Part shown: positions 136 through 33,198 of the stretch, one piece after another
How the letters are laid out: each line of letters opens with the position of its first letter
How positions within the stretch are numbered: the first letter of the stretch is position 1
IMG/VR virus record: IMGVR_UViG_3300005265_000855
Span: 1-33,198 of that record
DNA: 33,198 bases
Reading direction: 5' to 3' (one strand)
Origin: a virus
Translations under genes and position numbers: made by a program
The notes under the pieces: model-generated
Seen by the model: the letters and a program-made list of their open reading frames with translations, nothing else
Database searches by the model: none
What the model was told of the DNA's origin: nothing

Positions 136-713
136 CCCACGTGCTCCTTGACAAGCTGCAGGCAGGTCTCGATTGCCTCTGGCCGGTTATCCACCGGCTG
201 GAGGATAACCGGCTTGTCCATAACGACATAGCGGGCGAGAAATTCGAGGATAAATAGCTCCTCCTCCTTCCTCTCGCCCGCTATCACGAACTTAAGCTCA
301 TCTGCCTGCTGAACTGTTCTGATACTGCACTCCAAACGCTTAGGCGAAACGCTGTAGTATATCGGATATGCCAGGGGCGGCAACGTGCCGTTGGTCTGCA
401 CCTGAACCTCATGGCCGGACTCCAACAGCATCTCCACCAACGGCCTCAACACCCTGGCCTGCAATAGGGGCTCCCCGCCGGTGATACAAACCCATCTGGC
501 ATAAGGCAAGGCGGCCAAACGAATATAGGCCGCCTCAGGCTTCATCTCTTCACCACCACTGCGGGCATACTTGGTATCACACCATTTCCAACAACGAAAC
601 TGCTCATCCGCGTTGCAGCCCGCCAGGCGCAGGAAACGCATAGGCAGGCCGGTAAGTAGGCCTTCACCTTGTACTGACCAGAATATCTCAGATACTATAA
701 GCCGCTCCTGCAT
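90..713 (-). CDS. queE: 7-carboxy-7-deazaguanine synthase (radical SAM)
   Basis: QueE is a radical SAM enzyme that rearranges 6-carboxy-tetrahydropterin into 7-carboxy-7-deazaguanine (CDG). The 207-residue protein has the family opening [11 protein letters not shown] (residues 8-18), the cysteine cluster (C33, C41, C45, followed by DT), the ITGGEP SAM-binding motif near 77-82, QTNG, and a VSPK segment. The length is normal for QueE. The odd point is cysteine spacing: the bases read TGC, seven codons, TGT, three codons, TGT (CX7CX3C), not the usual CX3CX2C or the known CX14CX2C of some QueE. The ATG at 713 lies inside the end of queD (26-base overlap) with no good ribosome site, so translation is probably coupled to queD. 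The product would feed DNA or tRNA 7-deazaguanine modification. Confidence 0.9.
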
Positions 714-1029
714 TCGGCGTCTCCCATACTACCACAGACTTGACCTTGGGGCCGTCCAGAATCTTGCTGAACTGCTCAAAGAAGTGACGGGCCAAATTCT
801 CTGCTGTAGGGACGAAGGGAAAGACCTCGTTAAGGTACTCATGGTCGGGCAGGACGGCCCTTATCTTCTCCTTTACCTCGCCGAAGTCAACTAACATCCC
901 ATCCTTAAGCTGCGAGCCCTCAAGGATGACCTCGACGAGATAGCTGTGTCCATGTACCCTACCGCAGCGGGGATGCCCCGGCAACCTATGGGCTGCCTCA
1001 AATCGGAACTTCAGTCTTAGCTCGTACAT
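688..1029 (-). CDS. queD: 6-carboxy-5,6,7,8-tetrahydropterin synthase
   Basis: QueD converts dihydroneopterin triphosphate, the FolE product, to 6-carboxytetrahydropterin, the substrate of QueE. The 113-residue protein shows the whole PTPS/QueD signature: zinc histidines H14 (FEAAHRL) and H26/H28 (RVHGHSY), catalytic C22 (RCGRVHGH), H63 in the LPDHEYLN motif, E77 (PTAENLA) and E103 (VWETPNAGA). Size is typical of bacterial QueD. It sits directly upstream of queE (26-base overlap) and one base after the small membrane gene at 1031-1213, so it is probably read from the promoter at 1251-1279. A eukaryotic-type pterin synthase is less likely because of the Cys-containing motif and the Que neighbours. 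Confidence 0.92.
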   Translation of the reverse strand: MYELRLKFRFEAAHRLPGHPRCGRVHGHSYLVEVILEGSQLKDGMLVDFGEVKEKIRAVLPDHEYLNEVFPFVPTAENLARHFFEQFSKILDGPKVKSVVVWETPNAGAAYSI

Positions 1030-2430: not shown

Positions 2431-2610
2431 TTACTCCAAAATCTCAATATCACTTCCGATACTTCGAATGGACTTCTCCTCCAAATACGTAGCTGCGGCT
2501 GACGGCGCTGATGTCTTTCTCACAACGGAGAAGGCAACGGCTACCAGGATCAAGGTGAACACTGCACCGGCACAGAAACCGATAAGAAGATACAACTCAC
2601 ATCCGCCCAT
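2431..2610 (-). CDS. small single-pass membrane protein (59 aa)
   Basis: Not recognised. ATG at 2610 is chosen because GGAGGCAAGTG stands directly in front of it; the gene overlaps the end of the FtsK-like gene by 14 bases. After a short N-terminus comes one strongly hydrophobic helix (about residues 5-27), then a basic Arg-Lys pair and a polar serine- and alanine-rich tail ending in acidic residues. The predicted orientation is N-out or signal-anchor. It could be a small anchor or lysis accessory protein; nothing more specific can be said. Confidence 0.6.
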   Translation of the reverse strand: MGGCELYLLIGFCAGAVFTLILVAVAFSVVRKTSAPSAAATYLEEKSIRSIGSDIEILE

Positions 2611-3880
2611 CACTTGCCTCCAACATCTTCTCCACACGGTCGGCCACAACCTCCCGCTTCTTCCTTCCGCCGGGATAAGGGCCTACCAAACCCAGCTCCT
2701 CCAATAGGGCCATCATCCTGCTGGCCCTAGAAACACCCCAAGAAAACCGATTCTGAAGATCGTTCTGTGATACGCCCGTCTCCCTTCTTTCGAGAAGGAA
2801 ACGGAGGACGGGCAGGGGAACCTCCGGCGATGCTGGCCTTTCCCAACCTACCTGGCTCAGCTCCCCGCTGATGTCCCATAACCGAGAGGCAACAACCAGA
2901 TAACGCTGTATTTCTTCGCTCGAAACCCAGGGGCCTTGAAAGTGAACAAAGGTCAAACCGCTGTACAGGAAATCCCCACGACCCAATAGCAGGTGGGCGC
3001 GGCTGCCCTTTCTGCCCGTCGCTACCCTAGCGTTCTCCGGCGACTTAACCTGCCCCACTATCCTGGCTGATAGGTTGCTCTTCGCCAGGCTACCCAACAG
3101 GGCGGATAGGGGATTCTGCGTGGCCACGATAAGGTGAACCCCGGCCTCCCTGCCCCTCCTAGCCAGCCTGGTCAACCTATCTGCCGCACCGGGGACGAGG
3201 GAGATAACGTCGGCCAGCTCGTCTACTATGAGGAAAAGGTGCGGCCTTCTCACCCCGACCCGGTTTCTCCTATCCATTTCTTGAACCGCCCAGGCCAGGG
3301 CCTTGCCTATGCTGCCCTCATCCGATAGCACAGGGGCCAGAAGGTTTCTCGCCCCGTCCAGCTCCTTAAACCGCCCTACCGCCGGGGCCAGCAGCAGCAC
3401 GCCCACATCCCGCTTGGCTAATAGCTGCAAGGCCAAGGTCAACAGCAGGGTCGTCTTCCCACTGCCGGTCGTCCCGGCGATGGACAGGTGGGGCGTGACA
3501 GGGGATGAAAAATCCAGGGCCACAATGCTGCCCGATAGGGCGACACCCACCACACAGCGCAGGTCGTCCGATGACAGGTGGGGCGCCAGGTCGGAAAAGG
3601 TTAGCTGCCTCATGCCAGGCCGGGCAACGTCGAGCACCACGTACCTACCCACCCGGCTAACATAAATCACCCGTACCCCGGCCCACACGGCCAAATCATC
3701 TGCCAGCCGCTCGATCTTAGATAGCGGCCCCGGCGTCCTCAGGTGGAAACGCAAATACTGGTAGCTCCTCCGGCAGCTCACGAACCGATGGGGTATGTTA
3801 GCCATTGCCAGGCGCTGGCTGAGCTTGGCTGCCAGTGCCGCTATCTCTGCCCTCCCGACGTTTCCTCCGCCTTCGCTCAT
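2597..3880 (-). CDS. FtsK/HerA-like DNA translocase ATPase
   Basis: This 427-residue P-loop ATPase has Walker A GTTGSGKT (136-143), Walker B LFLIVDE (215-221) and an ATQNP sensor segment near 255, in the order typical of FtsK/SpoIIIE translocases. The C-terminus (about 345-420) looks like the winged-helix gamma domain of FtsK (VSQNDLQNRFSWGVSRASRM). It lacks the membrane segments of cellular FtsK and is a compact phage or plasmid version. The likely job is ATP-driven movement of double-stranded DNA, for example resolving, segregating or moving replicated genomes. ATG at 3880 has GGAGG upstream and lies 83 bases inside the preceding gene. A HerA-type or conjugation coupling ATPase is possible, but the wHTH tail favours FtsK. 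Confidence 0.85.
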   Translation of the reverse strand: MSEGGGNVGRAEIAALAAKLSQRLAMANIPHRFVSCRRSYQYLRFHLRTPGPLSKIERLADDLAVWAGVRVIYVSRVGRYVVLDVARPGMRQLTFSDLAPHLSSDDLRCVVGVALSGSIVALDFSSPVTPHLSIAGTTGSGKTTLLLTLALQLLAKRDVGVLLLAPAVGRFKELDGARNLLAPVLSDEGSIGKALAWAVQEMDRRNRVGVRRPHLFLIVDELADVISLVPGAADRLTRLARRGREAGVHLIVATQNPLSALLGSLAKSNLSARIVGQVKSPENARVATGRKGSRAHLLLGRGDFLYSGLTFVHFQGPWVSSEEIQRYLVVASRLWDISGELSQVGWERPASPEVPLPVLRFLLERRETGVSQNDLQNRFSWGVSRASRMMALLEELGLVGPYPGGRKKREVVADRVEKMLEASDGRM

Positions 3881-12286: not shown

Positions 12287-12483
12287 GTCGGATTCCCGAA
12301 AAGGTCGTGCTGTACTGCCAGAAGGGGGATTGCCACCACATCGAGGTCGTGAACTACGGGCTGGCGACGGCGGAGGCTACCAGCGGGGACTATCTTCCGG
12401 CAGACAGGGCGAAGCTGATCTCTTAGCTCCACCCACACCTGCCAGGCTTCCTCCCAGGGGAACTCACTCTTTGCGGAAACCAT
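12287..12483 (-). pseudogene. polymerase X-type nucleotidyltransferase, 5' fragment
   Basis: Starting at ATG 12483 (GAGGTGGGTC in front), the frame gives about 65 residues including the nucleotidyltransferase signature AGSLRRRQPVVHDLDVVAIP and then DLFGNP. In family X polymerases the GS-RR helix and the DxD pair hold the first two catalytic aspartates. The host frame is then lost into the tnpB element and resumes at about 10999. The third catalytic aspartate and the TGS motif are found in neither fragment, so the gene is dead even if the element were spliced out precisely. Confidence 0.75.
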
Positions 12484-13306
12484 GACCCACCTCGCGTTCT
12501 AGATTATAAGACAATCCGCTAAGTTTGTCAAGCTGGGGAAACTCCAACTGGGCACGAAGGAGACGATCCTTCCTCATCCATTCCCGTGCCGCTATCACAT
12601 ACTCTTCACAAATGTCACATCCGAACCACCTCCTGCCAAGGCGATCTGCGGCCACCAGGGTCGAACCAGAACCGCAAACGAAATCAGCCACCAGGTCGCC
12701 AGGATTTGAAAGATAGGCTATCCAAACCTCTAGCGGCTTCAGCGCCTTCTGTGTAGGATGGATTCTACGAGAAGGATGGACAACCGGCGCTTTCACAACG
12801 TTAGGCTGCTGACCTAACTGGAAGTTAAAGGTCGCGCCTGCTTTACTGCCTTTGGTAAACCAGACTGCACTCTCAAGCGCTACCATAAAGTCAACCTTCC
12901 GCATTCGTGGCGTGGGATTACTCTTCAACCAGAATAAGTGCTGACGCATCTGGAAACCAAAACGCCGCGCCAAGGCTATCAGATATGCGCTGCGATTCAG
13001 ATCAAAGAAAATCACTAAGTGCCCTGAGTCCTTAAGTACCCTGGCCTGTTCTTTGAGAAAGGCCTTTATAAAACGCCAGTAGTCTCGCTCACTGTCGAAA
13101 TGATCCCATGCGCCGAAATCCAAGCTGATGTCAGAACCAGGAAACCTTAACGAGTCTTTCCTCCGATGGATTACCACCTCTTGTGAAACAGCCCAGGGCG
13201 GATCGGTAACTATCAGGTCTATGCATCCATCTGGGAGCTCAGCCATAACTTCTAAACAATCACCCACCACTATAGTGTTAGGCCGATATCTACCTAACCG
13301 AGACAT
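12464..13306 (-). CDS. DNA methyltransferase, N4-C/N6-A beta class
   Basis: This is an S-adenosylmethionine-dependent DNA amino-methyltransferase. The 280-residue protein has motif IV DPPW (35-38) before motif I DFVCGSGST (208-216), the order of the beta class, and a HPTQK segment (183-187) typical of this group. Length is normal for an orphan phage methylase, and no restriction enzyme is beside it. A likely role is protecting phage DNA from host restriction or marking it. The start ATG at 13306 overlaps the upstream gene by 17 bases and has a weak ribosome site. A consensus promoter for the next gene lies inside its 3' end. Target sequence and N4 versus N6 cannot be told. Confidence 0.88.
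   Translation of the reverse strand: MSRLGRYRPNTIVVGDCLEVMAELPDGCIDLIVTDPPWAVSQEVVIHRRKDSLRFPGSDISLDFGAWDHFDSERDYWRFIKAFLKEQARVLKDSGHLVIFFDLNRSAYLIALARRFGFQMRQHLFWLKSNPTPRMRKVDFMVALESAVWFTKGSKAGATFNFQLGQQPNVVKAPVVHPSRRIHPTQKALKPLEVWIAYLSNPGDLVADFVCGSGSTLVAADRLGRRWFGCDICEEYVIAAREWMRKDRLLRAQLEFPQLDKLSGLSYNLEREVGHGFRKE
12503..12531 (-). promoter_or_regulatory. consensus sigma70 promoter for the polymerase X operon
   Basis: On the minus strand TTGACA (12531-12526), 17 bases, TATAAT (12508-12503). It lies inside the end of the methyltransferase gene, about 20 bases before the ATG of the broken polymerase X gene at 12483. Confidence 0.75.
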
Positions 13307-22400: not shown

Positions 22401-22429
22401 ATTATAACACATTTTCGCCAACTTGTCAA
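22401..22429 (-). promoter_or_regulatory. consensus sigma70 promoter of the small-gene operon
   Basis: On the minus strand TTGACA (22429-22424), 17 bases, TATAAT (22406-22401), with TGT before the -10. The spacer end CGAAAATGTG is nearly the same as in the promoter 18502-18530 (CGAAAAAATGTG). About 45 bases upstream lies AACCTTAAAGTT (about 22475-22486), also shared. The rest of the 234-base gap 22349-22582 holds a T8 tract on the minus strand (22545-22552) after the tail genes, without a convincing stem. Confidence 0.8.
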
Positions 22430-22582: not shown

Positions 22583-23464
22583 CTAGCGGAGCCTGACGGA
22601 AAGTAAAACGGGCGTGGCTATCCGCCCGCCTTTCTGTGGAGATAACACCTCGATTTGGAACGAGGGCTGACTTACCCTCAACTCAAACTCTTCTGTGACA
22701 CGTTCTTCAACCCGGCCACCAGTTTTTGCCAAAAAACGGAAACGATAACGGCCACTTCTCGGCGGGCTAAAGCTCAACTCAAACCGGTCACCAACCCGGC
22801 TCATTGCTCCTATCATCTGCCAAGGCGCGCCGTCCAGAGAAAAGAAGCTTAACACCACCGCCTCCGGCAATACCCTGGACGAACCTTCGCCAAATAACCT
22901 CAAATGCTTCTTATCGTGATAAAGGTACGGCCTAATCCGCTCAGGTGCTTCCTCTATCGCCTGCGAATACCTGGCCTGGGCGGCCACCAGGGCTGCCTCC
23001 GCCTCCAAGCCCTCCACCAAGATCGCCAAGTCCAGGCTGTGATGGCTGGCTATAAAATGTCGCACCAGGCCGTTTCCTTTATCCTCCGCTGCAAACCAAT
23101 ATACCGCGTCGTAACCGAAGGCCACGACACCATAGGACGCAAGAAAGGGCAACAACTCCTGTCCTAACAGGCACGAGCAAGGGGCAAAGAATTTGCCACA
23201 GAACCGAACGGCCTGCTCTTCATCACAACCTACCAATTCCACCTTCTGCCCGTGAAAGCTGTCCGATGACCCATGACCAACCCCACCAATCCAAACTGCC
23301 TGATCTAAACAGGCAAACAACTGCTGTCTGTTAGCTGCCTTGCCTCTCAGCTCCTCTATCTCCCAACCGCCATCCCGAAGCTGGGGCACCAGCCAGTTAC
23401 GCAAGTGGTCGCTCCATATCCTCGTGGCTAGATCGTGATCCGGCTCAACTAACACGACCTTCAT
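22583..23464 (-). CDS. caspase-fold (clan CD, C25/gingipain-like) peptidase homologue with Ig-like C-terminus
   Basis: The 293-residue protein starts at ATG 23464 (GGAGG in front). Residues 57-65 read VWIGGVGHG, a hydrophobic strand ending in G-H-G (H64). About 34 residues on comes FFAPCSCLLG (C98), a second strand ending in the Cys-x-x-Gly of clan CD peptidases, then a strand VVAFGYDAVYWF. The His and Cys order and spacing match the catalytic dyad of C25/caspase-like enzymes. The last 90 residues are beta-rich (FELSFSPPRSGRYRFRFLA, then EEFELRV), an Ig-like domain as in gingipains. There is no signal peptide. The gene is the last of the tail operon. The fold call is strong by motif; activity and target are unknown. 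Confidence 0.65.
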   Translation of the reverse strand: MKVVLVEPDHDLATRIWSDHLRNWLVPQLRDGGWEIEELRGKAANRQQLFACLDQAVWIGGVGHGSSDSFHGQKVELVGCDEEQAVRFCGKFFAPCSCLLGQELLPFLASYGVVAFGYDAVYWFAAEDKGNGLVRHFIASHHSLDLAILVEGLEAEAALVAAQARYSQAIEEAPERIRPYLYHDKKHLRLFGEGSSRVLPEAVVLSFFSLDGAPWQMIGAMSRVGDRFELSFSPPRSGRYRFRFLAKTGGRVEERVTEEFELRVSQPSFQIEVLSPQKGGRIATPVLLSVRLR

Positions 23465-23684
23465 CTTTGGCCTCCAGGTAGTCTTTTATGACGTTAAGAT
23501 GCTCACGTCCTAACGGCGTGCCACGACGCATTTGATATAACCACCACTCCGGCGGACCACCTACGCTACCACCTGCACCGAGACGAAAGATCAACAACCT
23601 ACGGCGTAGAAAGGACAGCAGGCCGCCCTTCAAACCGTGCTGTTCGGCGAACCACTCCACCGCTTCCTTGTCCGAGGTTGCCAT
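23445..23684 (-). CDS. hypothetical protein (79 aa)
   Basis: Not recognised. ATG 23684 follows GGAGGTGAAAG. The first half is helical and basic (VEWFAEQHGLKGGLLSFLRR). The middle is glycine-rich (LGAGGSVGGPPEWW), and the end is a charged helix. It overlaps the peptidase-like gene by 20 bases and lies inside the end of the barrel-protein gene by 86 bases, so the three are tightly linked. It could be an adaptor or inhibitor of its neighbours, though nothing in the sequence shows that. Confidence 0.55.
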   Translation of the reverse strand: MATSDKEAVEWFAEQHGLKGGLLSFLRRRLLIFRLGAGGSVGGPPEWWLYQMRRGTPLGREHLNVIKDYLEAKDEGRVS

Positions 23685-24012
23685 CTTTCACCTCCCTATA
23701 TCTCACATACAGCTTGCCAATCCTCCGCCAATCCTCACCCGCCAATGCCCGAAACGTGGCCGGCCAGCAGTCAAGCGCTGTGCCCCAGCCACGTGGCATT
23801 CTGTCCAGTACTACTGCCACCACCTTCCGTCCTATCAGATGGCTATACTGCTGTCTAGCCCACCCTGGCACACCCACCACCTCTATCTCCAACCGCGTGC
23901 CGAAGGGGATAGACCAGTCCGCCACAGCCACACCATAGAAGCTGTCCGTCACCACACTTGGACAGACAGCCGGAACCTGGCCGTGCTCAAATGCACTCCG
24001 GAACCCTGGCAA
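23599..24012 (-). CDS. double-psi beta-barrel (RlpA/3D-like) protein
   Basis: The 137-residue protein contains YGVAVADWSIPFGTRLEIEV (26-45), then RKVVAVVLDRMPRGW (62-76) and LDCWPATFRAL (80-90), ending in YREV (105-108). This is the pattern of double-psi beta-barrel domains of RlpA-type lytic transglycosylases and 3D-domain proteins (PfGT-l, VvDR-p, lD-s-a-F-l). The likely catalytic-type aspartates are D70 and D81. The start is TTG 24012, inside the tail gene before it, with no strong ribosome site. A tail-borne wall-cutting role would fit its place. The last 30 residues overlap the next gene and look unstructured. Confidence 0.55.
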   Translation of the reverse strand: MPGFRSAFEHGQVPAVCPSVVTDSFYGVAVADWSIPFGTRLEIEVVGVPGWARQQYSHLIGRKVVAVVLDRMPRGWGTALDCWPATFRALAGEDWRRIGKLYVRYREVKDGNLGQGSGGVVRRTARFEGRPAVLSTP

Positions 24013-25237
24013 ACCAGTCTACACAGGTAAACCTCCAACCGGAAGTATCACCTGTAAACACCAAACCACGACGTTGGGGCGTCCAGGCTAAACCGCTAAT
24101 CCAAGTGCTAAGACCAGCAGTATTAGGCGCGTCACGATAGCGAAGCTGATACTGTGCCCTCCAATTTGACCATAGCGTTCCTTGCGGACATAATCCAATC
24201 ACGAAGGCGCCAGTGGCGTCTAAGGTGAATCGCTGAGTATCTGTTACCGACCCACCACCAACCCTATGCCGCGTCACGAACCATACTTTTCCGTGGCTCT
24301 GCCAACGAATTAGCACTTCCACAAAATTATCATCTGTGCCATCATCATAACGTAAACCCACGCTCCAAGCTGTCGAATTAGTAGTCATCGAAACCTTGGC
24401 AAGTAAACAATGAAAGAACATGGCATCTGAACGATATAGAAAAGCCCTGTCTCCACCTGAGAACTGATTTACCTTCAGAAAACTACGGAGAAGACTATAA
24501 TTCGGCGTGATAAATGGACTACCGGCCCATGCCCAACCGGACCGCAACGCACTACCATCGAAATCGTCTATCTGTTCTATCGGTATGCCCATCGCGGCAA
24601 AGTAAAGCTTCTCCGCCAGTCCACAGGAAGTTTGTCCATAGGGATAAAAGTCCTGCTTCTCAACAGGGAACGGGCTTGGGCTATAAGCGGCGGGGACTGG
24701 GCCTAACACTAAACAGGCGGCGTCAGCCAGCACCTGCACCGCGGGGCCGGTATCTATGCCTATAGCCACATTATAGGCAGTTTCTGTCGGGTCTACTTCT
24801 AAGGTGGACGTCAACAAGTGCCACTCTCCGTCACCAGGATGATACTGTTTATCTTGAGCACCAGTAACATCCCCATAGAACGAAACATACACTTGCCCCG
24901 ACACCGAACACTTAACCCAACAGGAAAAGGATAGATAGCGAATCCGTTTCACCAAACCCTCACCAATCTGCCAGGCCCGCTGCCAGAATGTAGCCCAATG
25001 TCCATCCGCATTGCTAAGCTGAACTGAGTAGCTACCTTCTAGACGGTCTGTACTTCGGGCAATACTCGCCCCGCTGCCGGAAAGGCTCCAACCATCTGGG
25101 ACACAGCTAGAGCCTCTACTCCACGCCTCGAACCCACCATTATACAGAAGGTTAACCGACGAGGAGTACTGCCAGAAGTTATCCACGCGACCGACAAAGT
25201 ATGGACGCAAAGCTCGAACATAGTCTTCTTTCGCCAT
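23987..25237 (-). CDS. tail fibre / receptor-binding protein with carbohydrate-binding-like domain
   Basis: Not matched to a named protein. The 416-residue protein has an N-terminal attachment part, then NLLYNGGFEAWS (about 29-40), PDGWSLSG, and RLEGSYSVQLSN. That is the classic start of CBM4/9-type jelly-roll domains (NGGFExW..., PDGW, G..SvxL). A second beta-rich half (residues about 220-416, IDDFDGSALRSGWAW onward) looks like a concanavalin-type lectin domain. This fits a receptor-binding tail protein that grips cell-surface sugars. It follows the hub-like gene by five bases. Whether it is a fibre, a spike or a baseplate cap cannot be told. Confidence 0.65.
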   Translation of the reverse strand: MAKEDYVRALRPYFVGRVDNFWQYSSSVNLLYNGGFEAWSRGSSCVPDGWSLSGSGASIARSTDRLEGSYSVQLSNADGHWATFWQRAWQIGEGLVKRIRYLSFSCWVKCSVSGQVYVSFYGDVTGAQDKQYHPGDGEWHLLTSTLEVDPTETAYNVAIGIDTGPAVQVLADAACLVLGPVPAAYSPSPFPVEKQDFYPYGQTSCGLAEKLYFAAMGIPIEQIDDFDGSALRSGWAWAGSPFITPNYSLLRSFLKVNQFSGGDRAFLYRSDAMFFHCLLAKVSMTTNSTAWSVGLRYDDGTDDNFVEVLIRWQSHGKVWFVTRHRVGGGSVTDTQRFTLDATGAFVIGLCPQGTLWSNWRAQYQLRYRDAPNTAGLSTWISGLAWTPQRRGLVFTGDTSGWRFTCVDWFARVPECI

Positions 25238-25242
25238 CTCTC

Positions 25243-26364
25243 CTACTCCAAACTCTCTCTAGCTACTAGAATATCTAGCAAGGGGCTAGCAAAGTCCGGG
25301 GAAACCCTTAGCTCCCCTGTATCATCGTTATATTCCGTCTCCACCAGAAAGAACGTCCGAAGGCTATCTGCCAGCTCCGAATCCAACATTGCCTCGCTGG
25401 GAACTAAATCCTTTATCCTTAATACATCCCCGGCGCGGATAAGATAGAGCGGCTTCCGAACCCCGTTCCTATCCCAGGCGTAACCACGAAACCGGGCTGT
25501 GGCACTCTGGCTGGGCTGCTTATATATCTCCAAAGCCACATCCCTAGCCTTCTCCGCCACGTCCTCCGTCACACCCGCCAGGCTCAGGATATAATCCCTC
25601 CTGCCGTACTGCGCTATGCTGTCGTCGTCCTGAACCCAATCCGTCATCTCCCTAGCACCCACCTCCGACGAATAGATCGCTGCCACCCTGTTCCATAGGT
25701 TGCTCGACGAACGACAGAAGCGGATACCGCCACTTGCTAAATCCGCCAGGCTCATGCACCAATCCACCTGCTCTTTTCTCGGAAACAGGTAGGGCTTCCT
25801 ATCCTCCCAAATGGCGAAATACCAGGCTCGCGGCGGGTCTTCTGTATCCCCGTAACTAACCACCGTCTGCACTATCTGCCCCGGCCTAAAATTGTCCTCA
25901 AACGTCTGCGGATGTATATCCAGGCCGGGGTCTTGCAGCCCGCTATAATCGGTCGCAATGTCTGGACAGGCGTTGCTCAGCACGTCAATTATTATATCCC
26001 TGGCCGTCCAGGTGGTATGCCAGTACCGGGCGTTATACACCTGGTCAAACAGGCTGGCCCAAAACCCAACTGCCCTCACCTTCATCCCAACGTCCAGAGG
26101 ATACACGTCCTCAATTCTGCCCTCCCATACCAGCCCAAACTGGCTGTCCCATAACACTAGGCGGTGTAGGTGATACCGCTCCGCCCAGAGAAACGCGGTC
26201 GGCTCGCCCAATAATGGCCTGAACTCCAGGGCATTGAAACCACCGTGCAGGCTGGTGGAAAACTTCAACCCTCGAAACTTGCCCGTCAGGTCGGCTATCA
26301 CTTCATCTTGCTTTTCACGAGAATAGAGATATAGCTGTAACATCTCTAACCTACGAAAAGCCAC
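25243..26364 (-). CDS. tail hub / minor tail protein
   Basis: The 373-residue protein starts at ATG 26364, overlapping the Dit-like gene by 19 bases. The N-terminal part (LQLYLYSREKQDEVIADLTG, LKFSTSLHGGFNALEF, LVWEGRIEDV) and the later RVAAIYSSEVG and FFLVETEYNDDTGELRV follow the layout of siphophage tail hub proteins (Tal-like or gp27-like), which close the tail tube and hold the receptor-binding proteins. The order tape measure, Dit-like, this protein, adhesin is the standard tail-tip order. No peptidase or glucosidase domain was recognised at its C-terminus. Confidence 0.6.
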   Translation of the reverse strand: MAFRRLEMLQLYLYSREKQDEVIADLTGKFRGLKFSTSLHGGFNALEFRPLLGEPTAFLWAERYHLHRLVLWDSQFGLVWEGRIEDVYPLDVGMKVRAVGFWASLFDQVYNARYWHTTWTARDIIIDVLSNACPDIATDYSGLQDPGLDIHPQTFEDNFRPGQIVQTVVSYGDTEDPPRAWYFAIWEDRKPYLFPRKEQVDWCMSLADLASGGIRFCRSSSNLWNRVAAIYSSEVGAREMTDWVQDDDSIAQYGRRDYILSLAGVTEDVAEKARDVALEIYKQPSQSATARFRGYAWDRNGVRKPLYLIRAGDVLRIKDLVPSEAMLDSELADSLRTFFLVETEYNDDTGELRVSPDFASPLLDILVARESLE

Positions 26365-27746
26365 TGAGGGATATAACCAATGTAAACACGCATCTGACTG
26401 TCTAAAGCGTTGACTGGCACACCCCCTGAATAGTACTCATCTACGCTGAAAAAGAAACGATGGTCTAGGCCGGGCCACAACTCACCAAGAAAGCCGAGAT
26501 CACTATCCGGAAGATCGTAAAAGAGATTAGTCGTGGAGATAACATTCGTCACGGGCGGAGGTTCCAAATTATTGACTTCCAGGAAAAAGGGATAGGGCCA
26601 ACCTAGCTTCAGTAACTTACTCTGATCTAACGGCAGGAAAAGAAGATAGTCCAAATCGTAACTACCGCTAGCAGCATCCGACTGTCCGTAAAGATTAAAC
26701 ACTAACTGCCAACTGATGTGAGTTCGCCAGGGCGGCACGGTGATTACTCCCAAATCAACCATTCTAAAGAGAGCTCCCGTTGCTATAGTCGGAATCTCAA
26801 CCTGCTCAGTCCGATAGTACTCCTTCTGAGAAGTCCCTAAGCCTAACTGAAGCTTAACCACACGATCGGTATCGTTATTCCTCGCCCGTACGAACACACG
26901 ATAACTGCCAGGCGGCGGCCAACCCGCAGTTTCGATACTATGTAACCTGAATAGATTTTCCGTAGACGAAGGACTTACTCTAACGGCTTCACCTTGGCTG
27001 AATTCCGTACCAGATACAACCGAGGCGTCAAAACCAGCGCTCCAATCTTCACATTGACGAATGGCAAAGAAACTGGCAGCGGAACGTGAAACCATGAGGC
27101 CAATACGACAACGAAGATATGCCGACGAACTGGCGGAGATGTTCTGAATATCTAAACGCAGAAGACCAGGCGCTGTACCCTCAATCTCATCTCCCGAAAC
27201 ATCCACATAATAAGGGTCTGTGCCATTATCGTGATTCTGTACTGTCGTCCAATCCACCAAACAAGACTCCTCACCCTGCCAGAAGGGATAGCACACCAAG
27301 TCCAAGGTCGCAGATAGAATACCATCCTTAACCAGGGCGGCCACATCCTCTGCTGCCGGCGTCAACCGCCCGCTGAATACCTCCTTGCTGACCACACGGT
27401 CGCCAAAACCACGATATATCTTCACCTTGGGGCCACGCCCACGAACTTGACGTAACCGGGCAAGTTCCAACATCCGCATGATACGATGGAGGTTATCCTT
27501 TACCGAGGCAATGTCGGGGCCGAGGACGGATAGGCGAATCCGCACACTAGAATTGCCATAAACCGCCCGTACCAGGTCGGAACCGTGACGATAGAAGTTG
27601 TCCGCGCCCCAACTCTCCCTCAAGGGCGGCGGCGGCGCACTAACCGCACCCGGCCCCAAGCTGAAGCTAACACCATCGGTCAGCTCCACCGCGTCTAGTA
27701 CTTCTCCATCCTCTTCAAGCTTTAACGTCACTTCGTACTCAGCCAT
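26346..27746 (-). CDS. distal tail (Dit-like) protein
   Basis: The 466-residue protein starts at ATG 27746 with GAGGGTGAG in front, eight bases into the end of the tape measure gene. Residues 1-180 match the usual Dit-like plan: a strand-rich ring domain with VRAVYGNSSVRIRLSVLG, a helix of about LHRIMRMLELAR, then GRLTPAAEDVAALVKDGILS and LDLVCYPFW. The rest is beta-rich with a jelly-roll-like insert (YRVFVRARNNDT, about 270-330), perhaps a carbohydrate-binding module, as in evolved Dits. Position right after the tape measure supports the call. Confidence 0.65.
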   Translation of the reverse strand: MAEYEVTLKLEEDGEVLDAVELTDGVSFSLGPGAVSAPPPPLRESWGADNFYRHGSDLVRAVYGNSSVRIRLSVLGPDIASVKDNLHRIMRMLELARLRQVRGRGPKVKIYRGFGDRVVSKEVFSGRLTPAAEDVAALVKDGILSATLDLVCYPFWQGEESCLVDWTTVQNHDNGTDPYYVDVSGDEIEGTAPGLLRLDIQNISASSSAYLRCRIGLMVSRSAASFFAIRQCEDWSAGFDASVVSGTEFSQGEAVRVSPSSTENLFRLHSIETAGWPPPGSYRVFVRARNNDTDRVVKLQLGLGTSQKEYYRTEQVEIPTIATGALFRMVDLGVITVPPWRTHISWQLVFNLYGQSDAASGSYDLDYLLFLPLDQSKLLKLGWPYPFFLEVNNLEPPPVTNVISTTNLFYDLPDSDLGFLGELWPGLDHRFFFSVDEYYSGGVPVNALDSQMRVYIGYIPQWLFVG

Positions 27747-30700
27747 ATCTCACCCTCAACTCCAACATCTCTCCAAGCTCGGCACGCAGCGACTGCACCA
27801 CACTATCTTTAATAGCCTCTACATCCGCCTCCTCCCTCACCCAGTTCGGCCCTACGCCAAGCTGCACGTTGATATACTGGCTGACACGGCCCACACCCGC
27901 TGGCTGAACAATGGGCGCTACCACACGGCCCAGGCCCAAACCGGCAAGTTGAAGGTTTATATCCCCTATCCCAACGGCCACCCGCCTCTTCATTTCCGCC
28001 ATCTCGATGTCCAGCTTCGATGCTGCCTGGGAGAAGGCGTCTACCAGGTTCCAGAGGAACGCATACTTGGGCGAGGTCTCACCTAAATCGTCCAACGCTG
28101 CGTTTACATCTGCCACACCCGCCTGCACCGTCTGCTCAAGGTGGTTAAGCTCTTCCTCCACCTTGGGGCAGGCATCCGTGATATTCTGACCGAAGTTATA
28201 GACGTGACGATAACCGTCCTGGGCCATCTGGTGTAACGACTGGCCGATGGAGTTCGTCGTGAAGTTTACCTTGTTAATTAACACGTTCAAATCATCCGCA
28301 ATATCACTCGCCCCGTCCGCAACGTTCTCACCAAAATCCCTCACGTCGTCGTAGCCCATCCGGCTGATTCTATCCATCGGTGCCGATACTTCGCTCTCCA
28401 GGTAGAGCACCTTGTTAATAAAGTTCTTAACACCTTCTGCCACTACGTCCAAGCCTTGATTGATACCCTCCCCAAAACCGGAGGTTGCCATATAGCCCAG
28501 GTCTTCAAGCTCCTGCAAACTGCTCTTCAATTCCGTCGTGTCCCAATCCACGCCCATAAAGCTAACGCTTTGTAGATTCTGGAGACCTCCTACTATATCG
28601 GAGACTATAGCTTCCGAGGCACACTTAAACCTGTCCGCGTCTGCCGCACCCTTCTCCAATAGGTCTGCCGCCGCTCCTAAGAAGTCCCTTATCGCCTCCA
28701 CATCATCTTTTAAATCAATCCACTTATCGCCCACGCCAGTATAATCCCGAACGCTCGACAATACCTCCAAACCTCTGGCAATCGTGTCCAACACGTCGTT
28801 AGCTGCTGACGCAAACTTGGACGCCTCTTTCACAAAGTCCTCGCCAACCGTCTTTCTGACCTCCTCCATCAAACCAAGCGCTGCCAATATGTCCTGCTTG
28901 AATCTGCCGAAGGCTGACTGGGGCACGCCCTTATAATCTCTCAAATCCGTCAGGGCGTCCACACCATCGCCAATCGTATCCAGCACGTCACCGGCGGCCT
29001 CGGCAAACTTTCGCGCGTGCTCCATACCCTCTACCGAGAACTGTTGGGCCGCCTCACTGAGATACTGAATCGCCGCCTCCAAATCCTCAAAGAAGGCCTT
29101 TAACGCCGACTCCGGTATGCCTCGATAGTCCTTCAATGCCTCAAAACCTTCCGCTCCATCGGCCAGGATGCCGACTGCCTCCTCCGCCGCCTCAAGGAAA
29201 ACGTTGGCCTGGGATAAGGCGTTTGTGCTGAAGTCTTGGGCCGCCTCCGTAAATAATCCGACCAAATACGACACGTCGGAGACAAAGCACTCCATAGCCA
29301 CAGTGCTGACATCTGGCAGCGTGGCGATACCGGATAGGGCCTCAAACGCTGACTCCAACACGTCCATCGCCTGTTCCGCCACATCGAGAAAGTCACCCGC
29401 TGCCGCTAACGCCTCTCGCTCAAAGTAACCCGAAAGATAGACGAAATGGTCAACCAGCGTCGCCACCAAGGTGGTAACCCGCAATACTGCCGATATGCTG
29501 GGCTCCACAAACCCCGGCATCTTCTCGAAAGCGTCAAAGGCGGCCTCCATAACATCTAGGCTATCCTCCGCCGCCTCCAAGAACGCCTCCGCTGCCTCAA
29601 GGCTGCCGTCCTCAAAGTCCTCGGCGGCGGCGGTGAACTCCCTCACCACCTGCTTAATCAACGATACCAGGCGGTCAACAGCGTCATCCGCCACCTCAAA
29701 GGTGCTCGGCATCTCACCGAAGGCTTCCGCCGCGTCACCTATGAGGTCAACCGCGTCTTCCGCTGCCTTCACGAAATCCTCACACTTCGCCAGGACGGAA
29801 AGGCGGAACTCGCCCGCTGACTCACTGAGCTTCCTCACCACCAGGCGGATGCTGTCGGCTAGCTCCTCAACCGCCCGCTCCGTAGGACGGCGGAAGCCCT
29901 CCGACATATCCTTAAACGCCTCCGCTGCGCTGGAGACCAAATCCATCGCCTTCTCCGCCGCCTCAGAGAAGTCCTGCACTGCGGCCAGACCCTCTATGTC
30001 GAACTCATCGCCCAAGGCGACAAACTTCTCTATCACGCTGTGAACACAGGATACGAAGGCGTCAACCGCTTCTTCACTAGGAGCCACGAAATCACATAGA
30101 CCCACTAGGGCGTCAACGCCTCGGTCTATCCAACCGACCGCCTTAGCCATCAACTCACCTATTCTGGCCGACCATTTCTCCGCACCCAACCAGCCCAGAC
30201 CGGCCTCCTCAAAGGCCCACGCGCTCTCTAGTAGCTTCATCACAATGTAACGGGCTGCCTCCACGAAGGCGTCCGCTAACTCCTGAATCTCCGTTAGGGC
30301 GGGCAGGCCCGCTACTGCCCTAATCCCGCTGGCTATATCGCTGAACGCCTGACCGATCTCAGAGAACAGCTCACCCAGCTCCTCCACTACCTCGGCTTCC
30401 CCTTCCGAGATACCCTCAGCTAAGTCCAGCATAATCTGCAGGCCAATGTCAAAGAAGACGCTGGGCGAGAACATCTGTAGGGCCTTCTTAACCCAGTCGG
30501 GCAGCTTGGCAAACTGCTGGGAGAACCAGGTCTGCAAATCCTGCCATAAACTCTCTATGCCGCCTTTTATGCCGTTGATTATGCCCTTACCAATCTCCAT
30601 TGCCGCTTCACCTACGGCAACCGCTATCTCGCCCACCGCCTCCAACAGCGCGGTTAAGAAGTCCTCCATTGCCGGGCCTATCCTGGGGATGGCCTCCTCA

Positions 30701-33198
30701 TACACCCATTGGGCGAAGGCAATACCCCACTTCACCAAGTTCTTGGCCAAGGTCGGCACGCCCTCAGAAAGAATCCACTCCACCACCTCAGCCAACAACT
30801 TACCCAGCTCCACGATAAGGTCAGGCGCTACATCCGCCACCCACCGAACGAACTCCGCCGCCCACTCCAACAGCGCTGCCGCTATATCAGGTGTGGCCTC
30901 CGCCAAGGTGGAAAGCACGGCCCCGATCAATTCGCCCAACTCGCTTACCAATGGCCCAATGTTAGGCCCAACCCACTCGATAAACTCTTTGCCCCATCGC
31001 TCAAGCTGCGCTACTATCTCCGGCACGGCCTCCGCCAGCTTGTCCAGAAGACTGGATATCAGATCGCCAACGGCGTCGAGCATAGGGCCTATCCTAGGCC
31101 CGACCCACTCCACAAATGCCTTACCCCACTCCAAAACCTCTTCAGCCAGGCGGGGCGCTTGTTCGGCGACGAAGGCTAACAACTCACCTGCCAACTCTCC
31201 CAACTCACTCAACATAGGGCCTATGTTAGGCCCGACCCACTCCACGAAAGCCTTGCCCCAGGCTGAAAGTTCTTCTAGGATAACCGGGGCGCCCTCCGCA
31301 ATCCAACCCACTACCCTGTCCAAGACGACACCCAACGACTCCACTAGCTCGACGGCCACCCTAGCGGCAAAGCTCAGAAAACTGTCCAGCCAGGAGCCTA
31401 AGCTGTCTTCTATCTCGCCAGTGCCGGATACTAAAGCTTGTGCTACCGAGGCCACCAACTCGCCCAGCTTCGACAATAGCCGGGGCACGACCTCCTCTAT
31501 CCAGTCCAAGAAGCTCTCTACCCACGAAGAGAAGTCAAACTCCCCAGCCGCGTCGGCCAGCCAAGCGCTGATCCGATCTAGAATATCGCCTAGTGCCGAG
31601 GCTATCCCACTGACCACCGGGCCCACCCAGGAAAGAAAGGCGTCAGGCCACTCCGATACCCCATCCGAAATTCCCGACACTATGTCACGCGCCGAGCTCA
31701 CTATTGTTGAACCCAGGTGCGATAAATTGTCCACCACCAGCCTCAATAACTCGGACAACGTCTCACGCGCCACCCCAACCAATTCCGGCCACTGGCGCGA
31801 CCAAACGGCCAGCGCCTCAGTCAAGCCACCTTCAGAAAACGCCTTGGCTACATCTTCCACAAAAGACACCAGGCGAGCTATCAACGGCTGGACTGTGCCA
31901 ACCACATCGGATACCACCTGCGAGATCGTGCCGAAGTGTTTAGCTACCAGGGGGCCGATGACCGCCACCGCTGCCGAAAAGGCTAAAATGGTGGGATTGA
32001 GGCCACCCAACACAGACATCAGCTTACCCAACAGAACCAGGCCCGGCCCCAACGTTGCACTCAAGCCAGCGAAGGCTGCCGCCGTCTGAATTAGCTGGGG
32101 ATGCCCTTTGGCGAATTTGGCGAAGGCCTGCGAAGCCCTCTCTGCCACCGTGCCCAGCTTTTCACCAAACTCCACCAAAGGCTTTAGTATCTCATAGACC
32201 GCTGGCATCAAGGCCCGACCTATGGTGTCCTTAAGGTTCTTGAGCTTGGCGGACAGACGACCGGCCAGAACCGCCGCGTCCTCCTGCACCTTACCGAAGG
32301 TCTTAATATAATCCTCCCCGCGCCTCATAACCTCCGCCAATAGCGCCGCCACCTTCTGTTCTTTCGTCAATTTGACCGTGCCTTCACCAACCGCAGACGC
32401 GAACTTACCATGCGCCGCGGTCGCCTTCGCCAGCTCTTTCTCCGTTTCCGCTATCTGGCGGTTAAGCTTATCTATCCTGAACTGCAGCGCTGCCCTAGTA
32501 GATTCCTTGGTCTTCTCACTAAGCTCGCCCATCCTAAGCTGGGCGATGTGAAGCTGGGTCTTTAAGTCTTGCAACTTGGTGGTCAACTGTGCTATCTTCG
32601 CCGAATTGTCCACCACCTGTCCACTGGTTGCTCCTAACGTCTTGGCATACCGCTCATAGGCGGCGGTCAAGTCTATAGTGAAACCTAGGTTGTCCAGGAT
32701 CATCGGCGAGGCCCTACCGATACCTTTCACGATACTCTCGAACATGAAACTCAAGCTCTCACCAGTTGCACGGCTGGCTGCGGCGGCTATCTCCGCCAAC
32801 CGGGGCAGGGTCTCACTCAAATCTCCCAATGACTCACGGCCAATCAACAACATGGCCAGCACTGCCTGCTGCATAAGCTCACTGTCACTCACCATACCGT
32901 GCGTCGCTTCCCTGAGCTTCTGCAAGATGGTATCTGCGTCCTGCCCCACACTGGCGGCCAGATCGTGAAAGGTTTGCCTCACCTGGTCAATCTTGGCCGA
33001 ATCAACCGCCAGCTTAACCGCCGCCGCCCCTATGCCCAGGATGGGCGCGGTCACATTCTTGGTCAAGGTTGCACCAAGACTGCCAAGCCGCTCGGCGGCC
33101 TGCTGCATCCGGTTCAGCCCTTCCTCATATTCCTTTAACCCCTGGCGGAAGTCCGTCATATCCGCCAGGATTTTTACTCCGACCTTCGGAAAGGCCAA
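27739..33198 (-). CDS. tape measure protein (start cut by the window edge)
   Basis: At least 1819 residues, one of the longest types of phage protein; it sets tail length. The first codon in the window is TTG, so the true start may be here or beyond the edge. N-terminal 180 residues (TDFRQGLKEYEEGLNRMQ, APILGIGAAAVKLAVD, SPMILDNLGF) match known tape measures. A coiled coil follows (about 200-265), then a hydrophobic stretch (about 365-420). Next comes a repeat region (about 520-820) with units of about 45 residues such as FVEWVGPNIGPMLSELGEL. A second array (about 1000-1450) of 75-80-residue units follows, of the form FxEAAEDxLDVxExAFEAL. No peptidoglycan hydrolase motif was seen. Stop TGA 27741-27739. 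Confidence 0.88.
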   Translation of the reverse strand: MAFPKVGVKILADMTDFRQGLKEYEEGLNRMQQAAERLGSLGATLTKNVTAPILGIGAAAVKLAVDSAKIDQVRQTFHDLAASVGQDADTILQKLREATHGMVSDSELMQQAVLAMLLIGRESLGDLSETLPRLAEIAAAASRATGESLSFMFESIVKGIGRASPMILDNLGFTIDLTAAYERYAKTLGATSGQVVDNSAKIAQLTTKLQDLKTQLHIAQLRMGELSEKTKESTRAALQFRIDKLNRQIAETEKELAKATAAHGKFASAVGEGTVKLTKEQKVAALLAEVMRRGEDYIKTFGKVQEDAAVLAGRLSAKLKNLKDTIGRALMPAVYEILKPLVEFGEKLGTVAERASQAFAKFAKGHPQLIQTAAAFAGLSATLGPGLVLLGKLMSVLGGLNPTILAFSAAVAVIGPLVAKHFGTISQVVSDVVGTVQPLIARLVSFVEDVAKAFSEGGLTEALAVWSRQWPELVGVARETLSELLRLVVDNLSHLGSTIVSSARDIVSGISDGVSEWPDAFLSWVGPVVSGIASALGDILDRISAWLADAAGEFDFSSWVESFLDWIEEVVPRLLSKLGELVASVAQALVSGTGEIEDSLGSWLDSFLSFAARVAVELVESLGVVLDRVVGWIAEGAPVILEELSAWGKAFVEWVGPNIGPMLSELGELAGELLAFVAEQAPRLAEEVLEWGKAFVEWVGPRIGPMLDAVGDLISSLLDKLAEAVPEIVAQLERWGKEFIEWVGPNIGPLVSELGELIGAVLSTLAEATPDIAAALLEWAAEFVRWVADVAPDLIVELGKLLAEVVEWILSEGVPTLAKNLVKWGIAFAQWVYEEAIPRIGPAMEDFLTALLEAVGEIAVAVGEAAMEIGKGIINGIKGGIESLWQDLQTWFSQQFAKLPDWVKKALQMFSPSVFFDIGLQIMLDLAEGISEGEAEVVEELGELFSEIGQAFSDIASGIRAVAGLPALTEIQELADAFVEAARYIVMKLLESAWAFEEAGLGWLGAEKWSARIGELMAKAVGWIDRGVDALVGLCDFVAPSEEAVDAFVSCVHSVIEKFVALGDEFDIEGLAAVQDFSEAAEKAMDLVSSAAEAFKDMSEGFRRPTERAVEELADSIRLVVRKLSESAGEFRLSVLAKCEDFVKAAEDAVDLIGDAAEAFGEMPSTFEVADDAVDRLVSLIKQVVREFTAAAEDFEDGSLEAAEAFLEAAEDSLDVMEAAFDAFEKMPGFVEPSISAVLRVTTLVATLVDHFVYLSGYFEREALAAAGDFLDVAEQAMDVLESAFEALSGIATLPDVSTVAMECFVSDVSYLVGLFTEAAQDFSTNALSQANVFLEAAEEAVGILADGAEGFEALKDYRGIPESALKAFFEDLEAAIQYLSEAAQQFSVEGMEHARKFAEAAGDVLDTIGDGVDALTDLRDYKGVPQSAFGRFKQDILAALGLMEEVRKTVGEDFVKEASKFASAANDVLDTIARGLEVLSSVRDYTGVGDKWIDLKDDVEAIRDFLGAAADLLEKGAADADRFKCASEAIVSDIVGGLQNLQSVSFMGVDWDTTELKSSLQELEDLGYMATSGFGEGINQGLDVVAEGVKNFINKVLYLESEVSAPMDRISRMGYDDVRDFGENVADGASDIADDLNVLINKVNFTTNSIGQSLHQMAQDGYRHVYNFGQNITDACPKVEEELNHLEQTVQAGVADVNAALDDLGETSPKYAFLWNLVDAFSQAASKLDIEMAEMKRRVAVGIGDINLQLAGLGLGRVVAPIVQPAGVGRVSQYINVQLGVGPNWVREEADVEAIKDSVVQSLRAELGEMLELRVRYG

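Follow-up and report, generated by a model that had tools for sequence, protein, structure and literature searches.

In the clan CD arrangement of cysteine peptidases, the catalytic His and then the catalytic Cys are described as lying at the ends of strands 3 and 4 (PMC4357240), and a Gly before the catalytic His is given as a further feature of the clan (PMC12445089). The gingipains RgpB and Kgp (MEROPS family C25) belong to this clan, and in gingipain R the P1 arginine is bound by Asp163 in the first helix (PMC4357240). A published two-gene conflict system, EACC1-caspase, pairs a small 5' gene with a caspase-superfamily gene on its 3' side, whose C-terminal parts vary and in some cases include transmembrane (TM) segments; EACC1 has a conserved TM helix and the system is chiefly actinobacterial (PMC7159879). 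In the literature searched, neither a phage tail or phage-encoded caspase-fold protease nor the cassette examined here was described.

The peptidase homologue examined here resembles the gingipains in its fold, in a dyad placed where strands 3 and 4 end and in an acidic residue near helix 1; a putative Ig-like domain, with moderate model confidence and a weak Pfam match, would follow the catalytic domain as it does in gingipains. The homologue has, however, no sequence membership in their family and no signal or prodomain before strand 1, and it is coupled to a small partner gene in a phage tail operon. With CHAT, SAVED-CHAT and Craspase it shares a caspase-like fold and a cytosolic-type protein, although no SAVED, TPR or CRISPR partner and no family match was seen here. 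It shares the fold of separase (C50) as well, but separase is a large eukaryotic protein and no sequence relation was found. As in EACC1-caspase, the 3' gene carries an N-terminal caspase domain and variable C-terminal parts; in contrast to that system as summarised above, the partner has no TM helix and the cassette is found in viruses and Patescibacteria. A further counterpart, vir519 gene 54, has a homologous peptidase domain and a small upstream gene but differs in having a C-terminal hydrophobic anchor instead of the Ig-like domain and in not lying beside tail genes.

The peptidase gene and its operon

The window, i.e. the whole stretch of DNA analysed, is a single virus record of 33,198 bases (IMGVR_UViG_3300005265_000855). 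Its features relevant here are the following.

22583-23464, minus strand: clan CD (caspase-fold) cysteine peptidase homologue, 293 aa, with an Ig-like C-terminal region; final gene of the tail operon
23273-23275, minus strand: codon of the predicted catalytic His64 (V-G-H-G), from the sequence and alignment rows
23171-23173, minus strand: codon of the predicted catalytic Cys98 (S-C-L-L-G101; SCxxG), from the sequence and alignment rows
23432-23434, minus strand: codon of Asp11 (PDxDLATR), which immediately precedes helix 1; by analogy with Asp163 of RgpB, a candidate S1 residue that would accept a basic P1
22586-22858, minus strand: C-terminal Ig-like region, residues 203-293, of low confidence after residue 250
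23445-23684, minus strand: small partner gene, 79 aa, predicted helical; 20-nt overlap with the peptidase gene
23599-24012, minus strand: neighbouring ORF of 137 aa, double-psi-barrel-like by eye only; no Pfam match
23987-25237, minus strand: neighbouring adhesin/tail-fibre-like protein; CBM_4_9 at E 2.5e-5, just below the cut-off
27739-33198, minus strand: tape measure protein, 1819-codon ORF open at the contig end; marks the unit as a tail operon
22401-22429, minus strand: sigma-70-type promoter TTGACA-17-TATAAT with TG before the -10 element, 12/12 consensus; belongs to the transcription unit that follows, located downstream of the peptidase gene

The peptidase ORF begins with an ATG preceded by a ribosome-binding-like GGAGG just 5' of it, and it closes a leftward operon to which the tape measure and adhesin-like genes also belong. 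The initial annotation had assigned an H64/C98 dyad to this ORF and had placed it at the close of a tail operon behind an adhesin and a barrel protein. The ORF is real and holds both motifs, and its terminal position agrees with the tape measure and adhesin-like genes upstream and with the promoter of the next unit at 22429-22401. The adhesin-like gene has its CBM_4_9 match just under the cut-off; the barrel is an interpretation by eye and drew no match in Pfam. The perfect sigma-70 consensus of the promoter argues for a bacterial host.

The window also encodes QueE-like and QueD-like proteins (90-713 and 688-1029, minus strand; PHROGs 2.8e-32 and 4.2e-20), whose similarities point to 7-deazaguanine synthesis, perhaps for DNA modification. 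Other genes on the same strand are those for a DUF2227 metal-binding protein (1282-1863; 1.5e-20) near an FtsK/SpoIIIE-like gene at 2597-3880, a TnpB/IS605 OrfB-like gene within the phage (11016-12170; Cas12f1-like_TNB 1.1e-17) and an N6/N4 DNA methylase gene (12464-13306; 7.4e-39).

Fold of the peptidase and conservation of its active site

An AF2 model of the peptidase, built from an eight-sequence alignment (A6), had a mean pLDDT of 81.1 and a pTM of 0.73. Its elements follow the order beta-alpha-beta-alpha-beta-(H64)-hairpin-alpha-beta-(C98)-alpha-beta plus a helical segment, and then a beta-rich C-terminus. In the model H64 comes directly after strand E56-62 (beta 3) and C98 directly after strand E92-96 (beta 4), which is the clan CD order; because both residues sit at clan CD positions, they are more than a chance pair of motifs. 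Foldseek returned SAVED-CHAT, RgpB and caspase-4 at E < 0.001. When 1000 PDB chains were aligned with VIA-align, RgpB was the best among the matches listed (Z 17.1 over 178 residues, 2.5 A), with SAVED-CHAT (15.9), separase (15.2), Kgp (14.3), legumain (about 13), caspases (about 11) and Craspase (11.0) at lower Z. Chains of gingipain, CHAT, separase, legumain, MALT1 and caspases headed the listing, where the anti-sigma factor DdvA also appeared; this superposition hardly tests the C-terminal part, and families missing from these chains carry no weight as evidence. Foldseek matches among viral models included one myovirus protein and caspase/metacaspase-like proteins of giant viruses.

At the sequence level, the window peptidase matched no Pfam or NCBIfam family, no PDB sequence and no entry in a PHROGs scan. 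Even with E values of up to 1 allowed, Peptidase_C25 did not match the window protein, and PF00656 (C14 caspase/metacaspase) had none in the window record or the Pfam scan, whereas one control genome did match it. Membership of C25 or C14 by sequence was therefore rejected. Only the vir519 homologue comes near Peptidase_C25, with E 0.015 and 15 bits where the cut-off is 23. The caspase-fold topology that had been proposed from the motifs is thus borne out by a predicted structure of clan CD order that superposes on gingipain, CHAT and separase, whereas the proposed likeness to gingipains holds for the fold (RgpB) and does not extend to the family.

Besides the window, six virus records, a single Chloroflexi MAG and 12 of the 379 Patescibacteria genomes searched carry distant relatives of the protein. 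A scan of phages with the window protein gave a weak match at E 0.2 (the second match was at E 9) to vir519 gene 54 (BK063666, Methanofastidiosa virus, annotated as hypothetical), a homologue with a blastp value of 7e-13 in a single comparison. Scans of viral contigs with the vir519 protein, with the two-row alignment A1 or with the tail gene at 25243-26364 yielded no relative, and neither a megablast search with the tail region nor tblastn with 26346-27746 found a match in phages. Because pattern scans with the window protein alone also produced no relative in viral contigs, genome contigs or plasmids, a DNA-pattern search was used. Three viral scans returned 104, 50 and 48 stretches and a genome scan 119, of which 80 were listed. 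Most of these were chance matches, and filters and a profile kept five new viral records (L034/L106, L089/L107, L041, L113 and L182) and two cellular loci, in a Patescibacteria MAG (L220) and a Chloroflexi MAG (L215).

The profile search, for which L215 and L220 were seeds, matched 1 of 400 Chloroflexota genomes, which was the seed alone, and the 12 Patescibacteria genomes, one of which was the seed; 2 of 13 genomes in one order carry a relative. No match was found in 249 Bacillota genomes, 151 Methanobacteriota genomes or 10 single genomes, sets that contained no known positive. The closest relative is L113, with 33% identity over the full length including the Ig-like region (E 1e-54). The window protein and the Patescibacteria protein L330, the sole such pair run, matched at E 2e-8 in a single comparison. 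Two Patescibacteria relatives are damaged or incomplete, L334 being interrupted by internal stops and L338 being short.

An 18-row alignment (A7) was used to examine the active site; it omits L334 and L338 for these reasons, L326 as a fuller copy of L220 and, like A4 to A6, L034 and L089 as shorter copies of L106 and L107. C98 and G152 are present in 18/18 rows and H64 in 17/18, and the position of D11 is acidic in all 18 (15 D, 3 E). The Gly before the catalytic His (G63 in the window) is found in 16/18 rows; in L041 the His is preceded by Met. Seven rows (L106, L041, L107, L113, L182, L220 and L215) had been found by DNA patterns that imposed H-G, G72, C, G101, L104/L108 and G112, and these rows are not counted as independent since the patterns dictated the motif residues. 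In the remaining 11 motif-free rows (the window, vir519 and nine Patescibacteria proteins, the last found with a profile itself built from motif-bearing rows) C98 is conserved in 11, H64 in 10 and the acidic residue at D11 in 11, so the initial annotation's dyad is conserved in homologues. D11 lies at the start of helix 1, and Asp163 of gingipain R lies in the first helix; by this analogy cleavage after a basic residue would be a fair guess.

The single exception at H64 is L337, which has Tyr at the catalytic His position. This loss, together with the existence of caspase-fold pseudoenzymes, might suggest that the caspase-like domain is kept as a binding module and is no protease at all. The retention of C98 and H64 in nearly all motif-free rows, in an alignment whose relatives are only 14-36% identical to the window protein, makes such a role very unlikely.

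The recurrent gene pair and its settings

The 79-aa gene at 23445-23684 lies directly upstream of the window peptidase gene and overlaps it by 20 nt. L113 has a partner homologue in the same position (E 4e-15), and a small gene also stands immediately upstream of the peptidase in vir519 (where the two overlap by 4 nt), L041, L215 and all 12 Patescibacteria loci. The spacing was -32 to +10 nt in 16/16 pairs measured, a set that includes vir519 and all 12 Patescibacteria loci and leaves out L215, L182, L107 and L106. Peptidase and partner are probably translationally coupled. The peptidase had at first been treated as a lone gene; the evidence points instead to a two-gene cassette common to these viruses and Patescibacteria.

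Homology among the partners was examined with a profile made from Patescibacteria sequences only, which is non-circular for L215 and vir519. Across 2959 ORFs from nine sources it ranked the L215 partner first (E 4.7e-6) and that of vir519 second (E 0.038). HHalign of the Patescibacteria family gave probabilities that are weak singly, 2.1 % against the window partner alone and 3.2 % against the window-L113 pair. Among 66 small control ORFs the L041 and vir519 partners ranked first and second; the window partner, scored outside that set at 15.8, would rank third, barely above a chance ORF at 15.7. For the small ORFs of L182 and L107, partner homology was not supported, and in L182 a NUMOD3 homing-endonuclease-like gene (L341 9201-10004, minus strand; 7e-9) separates the small ORF from the peptidase gene. 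The partner is predicted to be helical (model pLDDT 75), and its model had no structural match (best E 3.1). A TM segment is absent from all 18 distinct partners, the highest 19-residue hydropathy being 1.31.

In Patescibacteria a further gene of about 60 aa precedes the pair in 11/11 assessable loci. These operon counts cover all 12 loci (L326 and L328-L338), of which L333 lies at a contig end such that its first small gene could not be assessed. The family opening the operon has a conserved PITW motif (YANLPL..R.EIVLVL..PITW), and the one member tested matched nothing in Pfam or NCBIfam. A paralogous relation between the two small proteins of the Patescibacteria operon was considered and not supported (0.5 %).

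The C-terminal parts of the peptidase vary among records, with an Ig-like region in the window and L113, an Ig-like region plus a hydrophobic anchor in L041, a hydrophobic anchor in vir519, a Pro-rich end in L107 and L182, a Ser-rich fibre-like extension in L106 and nothing further in Patescibacteria. In L106 the peptidase domain forms the N-terminus of a 1036-aa Ser-rich fibre-like protein. The Ig-like domain that the initial annotation had proposed for the window protein is moderately supported by strands modelled at residues 203-274 and by a Big_3_5 match above the cut-off at the same place in the L041 homologue, but confidence falls along these strands, pLDDT is below 50 at residues 275 to 287 and the Pfam Ig-like_KY match is weak (E 0.2, far under the cut-off). 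By eye, the Ig-like tails encoded at 22583-22670 in the window and at 8430-8523 in L339 end after the start of an apparent second, truncated Ig-like domain, which could possibly serve as a donor strand for another protein. At the other end, strand 1 of the window peptidase starts at residue 2 and N-terminal hydropathy is 0.07. An N-terminal hydrophobic signal is absent in 17/18 rows of A7, and vir519 is borderline at 1.34. With no such signal, export with the particle is plausible.

Tail genes lie upstream of the peptidase in 4/7 virus records (the window, L113, L106 and L041). In L113 Dit and Gp37-like tail genes precede it and the next gene looks glycosidase-like by eye, with no Pfam match; in L106 it stands behind head-tail adaptor, major tail protein, tape measure and tail assembly genes, and in L041 it follows the tape measure gene. 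L107 and L182, which are closely related to each other, have repeat-rich proteins nearby, with no tail PHROG in the two proteins tested. The vir519 pair is downstream of a queuine tRNA-ribosyltransferase gene, away from the annotated tail genes.

Such settings might indicate a late processing or lysis protease, which would trim the virus's own tail or head proteins or else assist release by opening a surface layer from the inside, in concert with the barrel-like protein. The peptidase is the last gene of the late operon and adjoins a possible cell-wall enzyme (by eye), and both the glycosidase-like gene after the L113 peptidase and the hydrophobic anchor of the L041 form would suit this role. 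However, known head maturation proteases are encoded with capsid genes, which is not the case here, the vir519 and Patescibacteria copies lack such a setting, and no holin was identified in the window. A processing or lysis role therefore seems unlikely.

Proposed role of the peptidase and its partner

The fold, the position and conservation of the dyad, the recurrence of the pair and the tail-operon setting in the window and three other viruses are computed results, and the fold, the dyad conservation and the recurrent pair together make it quite likely that the product is an active clan CD peptidase and that its partner is a dedicated one. Since the pair recurs in other viruses and in Patescibacteria, which are tiny parasites, it looks like an undescribed protease system.

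The best overall explanation, which we put forward tentatively, is that the pair comprises an endopeptidase of a new family and its partner, made late with the tail and aimed at a host surface protein. The virus would produce the clan CD cysteine endopeptidase late, as the last tail gene, alongside the small helical partner. The peptidase would be active and would cut after a basic residue, and the partner might be an inhibitor or a chaperone, holding the protease inactive inside the cell that makes it and either restraining or delivering it. The peptidase would then be borne on the particle, with the Ig-like part serving for attachment, and would cut a host-surface protein of the S-layer, sheath or pili as the virus adsorbs or enters. 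Such a particle-borne, host-surface protease is favoured by expression late and together with the tail, by the missing signal sequence and by the Ig-like and fibre-like fusions. Against it stand the vir519 pair away from tail genes, the lack of a tail PHROG in the two proteins tested for L107 and L182, the Tyr for His in L337 and the broken or short copies L334 and L338. Moreover, the Patescibacteria pair stands alone and lacks Ig-like and anchor parts, so the general role of the family cannot lie in acting at the surface.

The Patescibacteria copies bear more directly on an intracellular conflict module, in which a small regulator and a protease would be carried as late-region cargo by viruses, for superinfection exclusion, counter-defence against host death systems or addiction, and would form an accessory defence or toxin-like operon in Patescibacteria. 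The spread is patchy and accessory, as the 12 of 379 genomes and the 2 of 13 in one order illustrate, and the three-gene operon has changing neighbours that by eye include HNH protein, recombinase, restriction-like and toxin-antitoxin-like genes. The stand-alone patescibacterial operon, the setting of the vir519 pair outside tail genes and the parallel with EACC1-caspase, in which a caspase is likewise tightly coupled to a small protein (PMC7159879), favour a conflict role inside the cell, and the lack of a signal peptide suits it too. However, PADLOC models searched at up to E 1 against 10 proteins gave only one chance-level TIR match, several Patescibacteria copies adjoin housekeeping genes (by eye), and the viral Ig-like and fibre-like fusions suit display on a particle better. 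We consider the conflict module possible, if rather on the doubtful side, and across the family surface and conflict roles need not exclude each other.

A broader scenario, which we regard as doubtful, would join the host-surface protease to these other copies. A two-part system of helical controller and gingipain-fold protease would have been exchanged among bacterial and archaeal tailed viruses and the ultrasmall Patescibacteria; in some phages the protease would have become joined to Ig-like or fibre parts and mounted on the tail, where it would shave the host's protein coat, whereas Patescibacteria would keep the bare three-gene form for conflict.

The fold and the mechanism class are already known. 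The family, the partner and the place in a tail operon appear undescribed, judging from their absence from the literature searched and from Pfam, NCBIfam, PADLOC and PHROGs (the last for the window protein only), and the cassette would add an undescribed family to clan CD. Sugar-cutting enzymes and wall lysins are known from phage tails; a caspase-fold protease placed there would, if true, be a new kind of tail tool, and would otherwise be a phage-borne conflict protease. Hardly any gene function is directly testable in Patescibacteria, and the pair that they have in common with these viruses offers a defined, small and testable two- or three-gene system.
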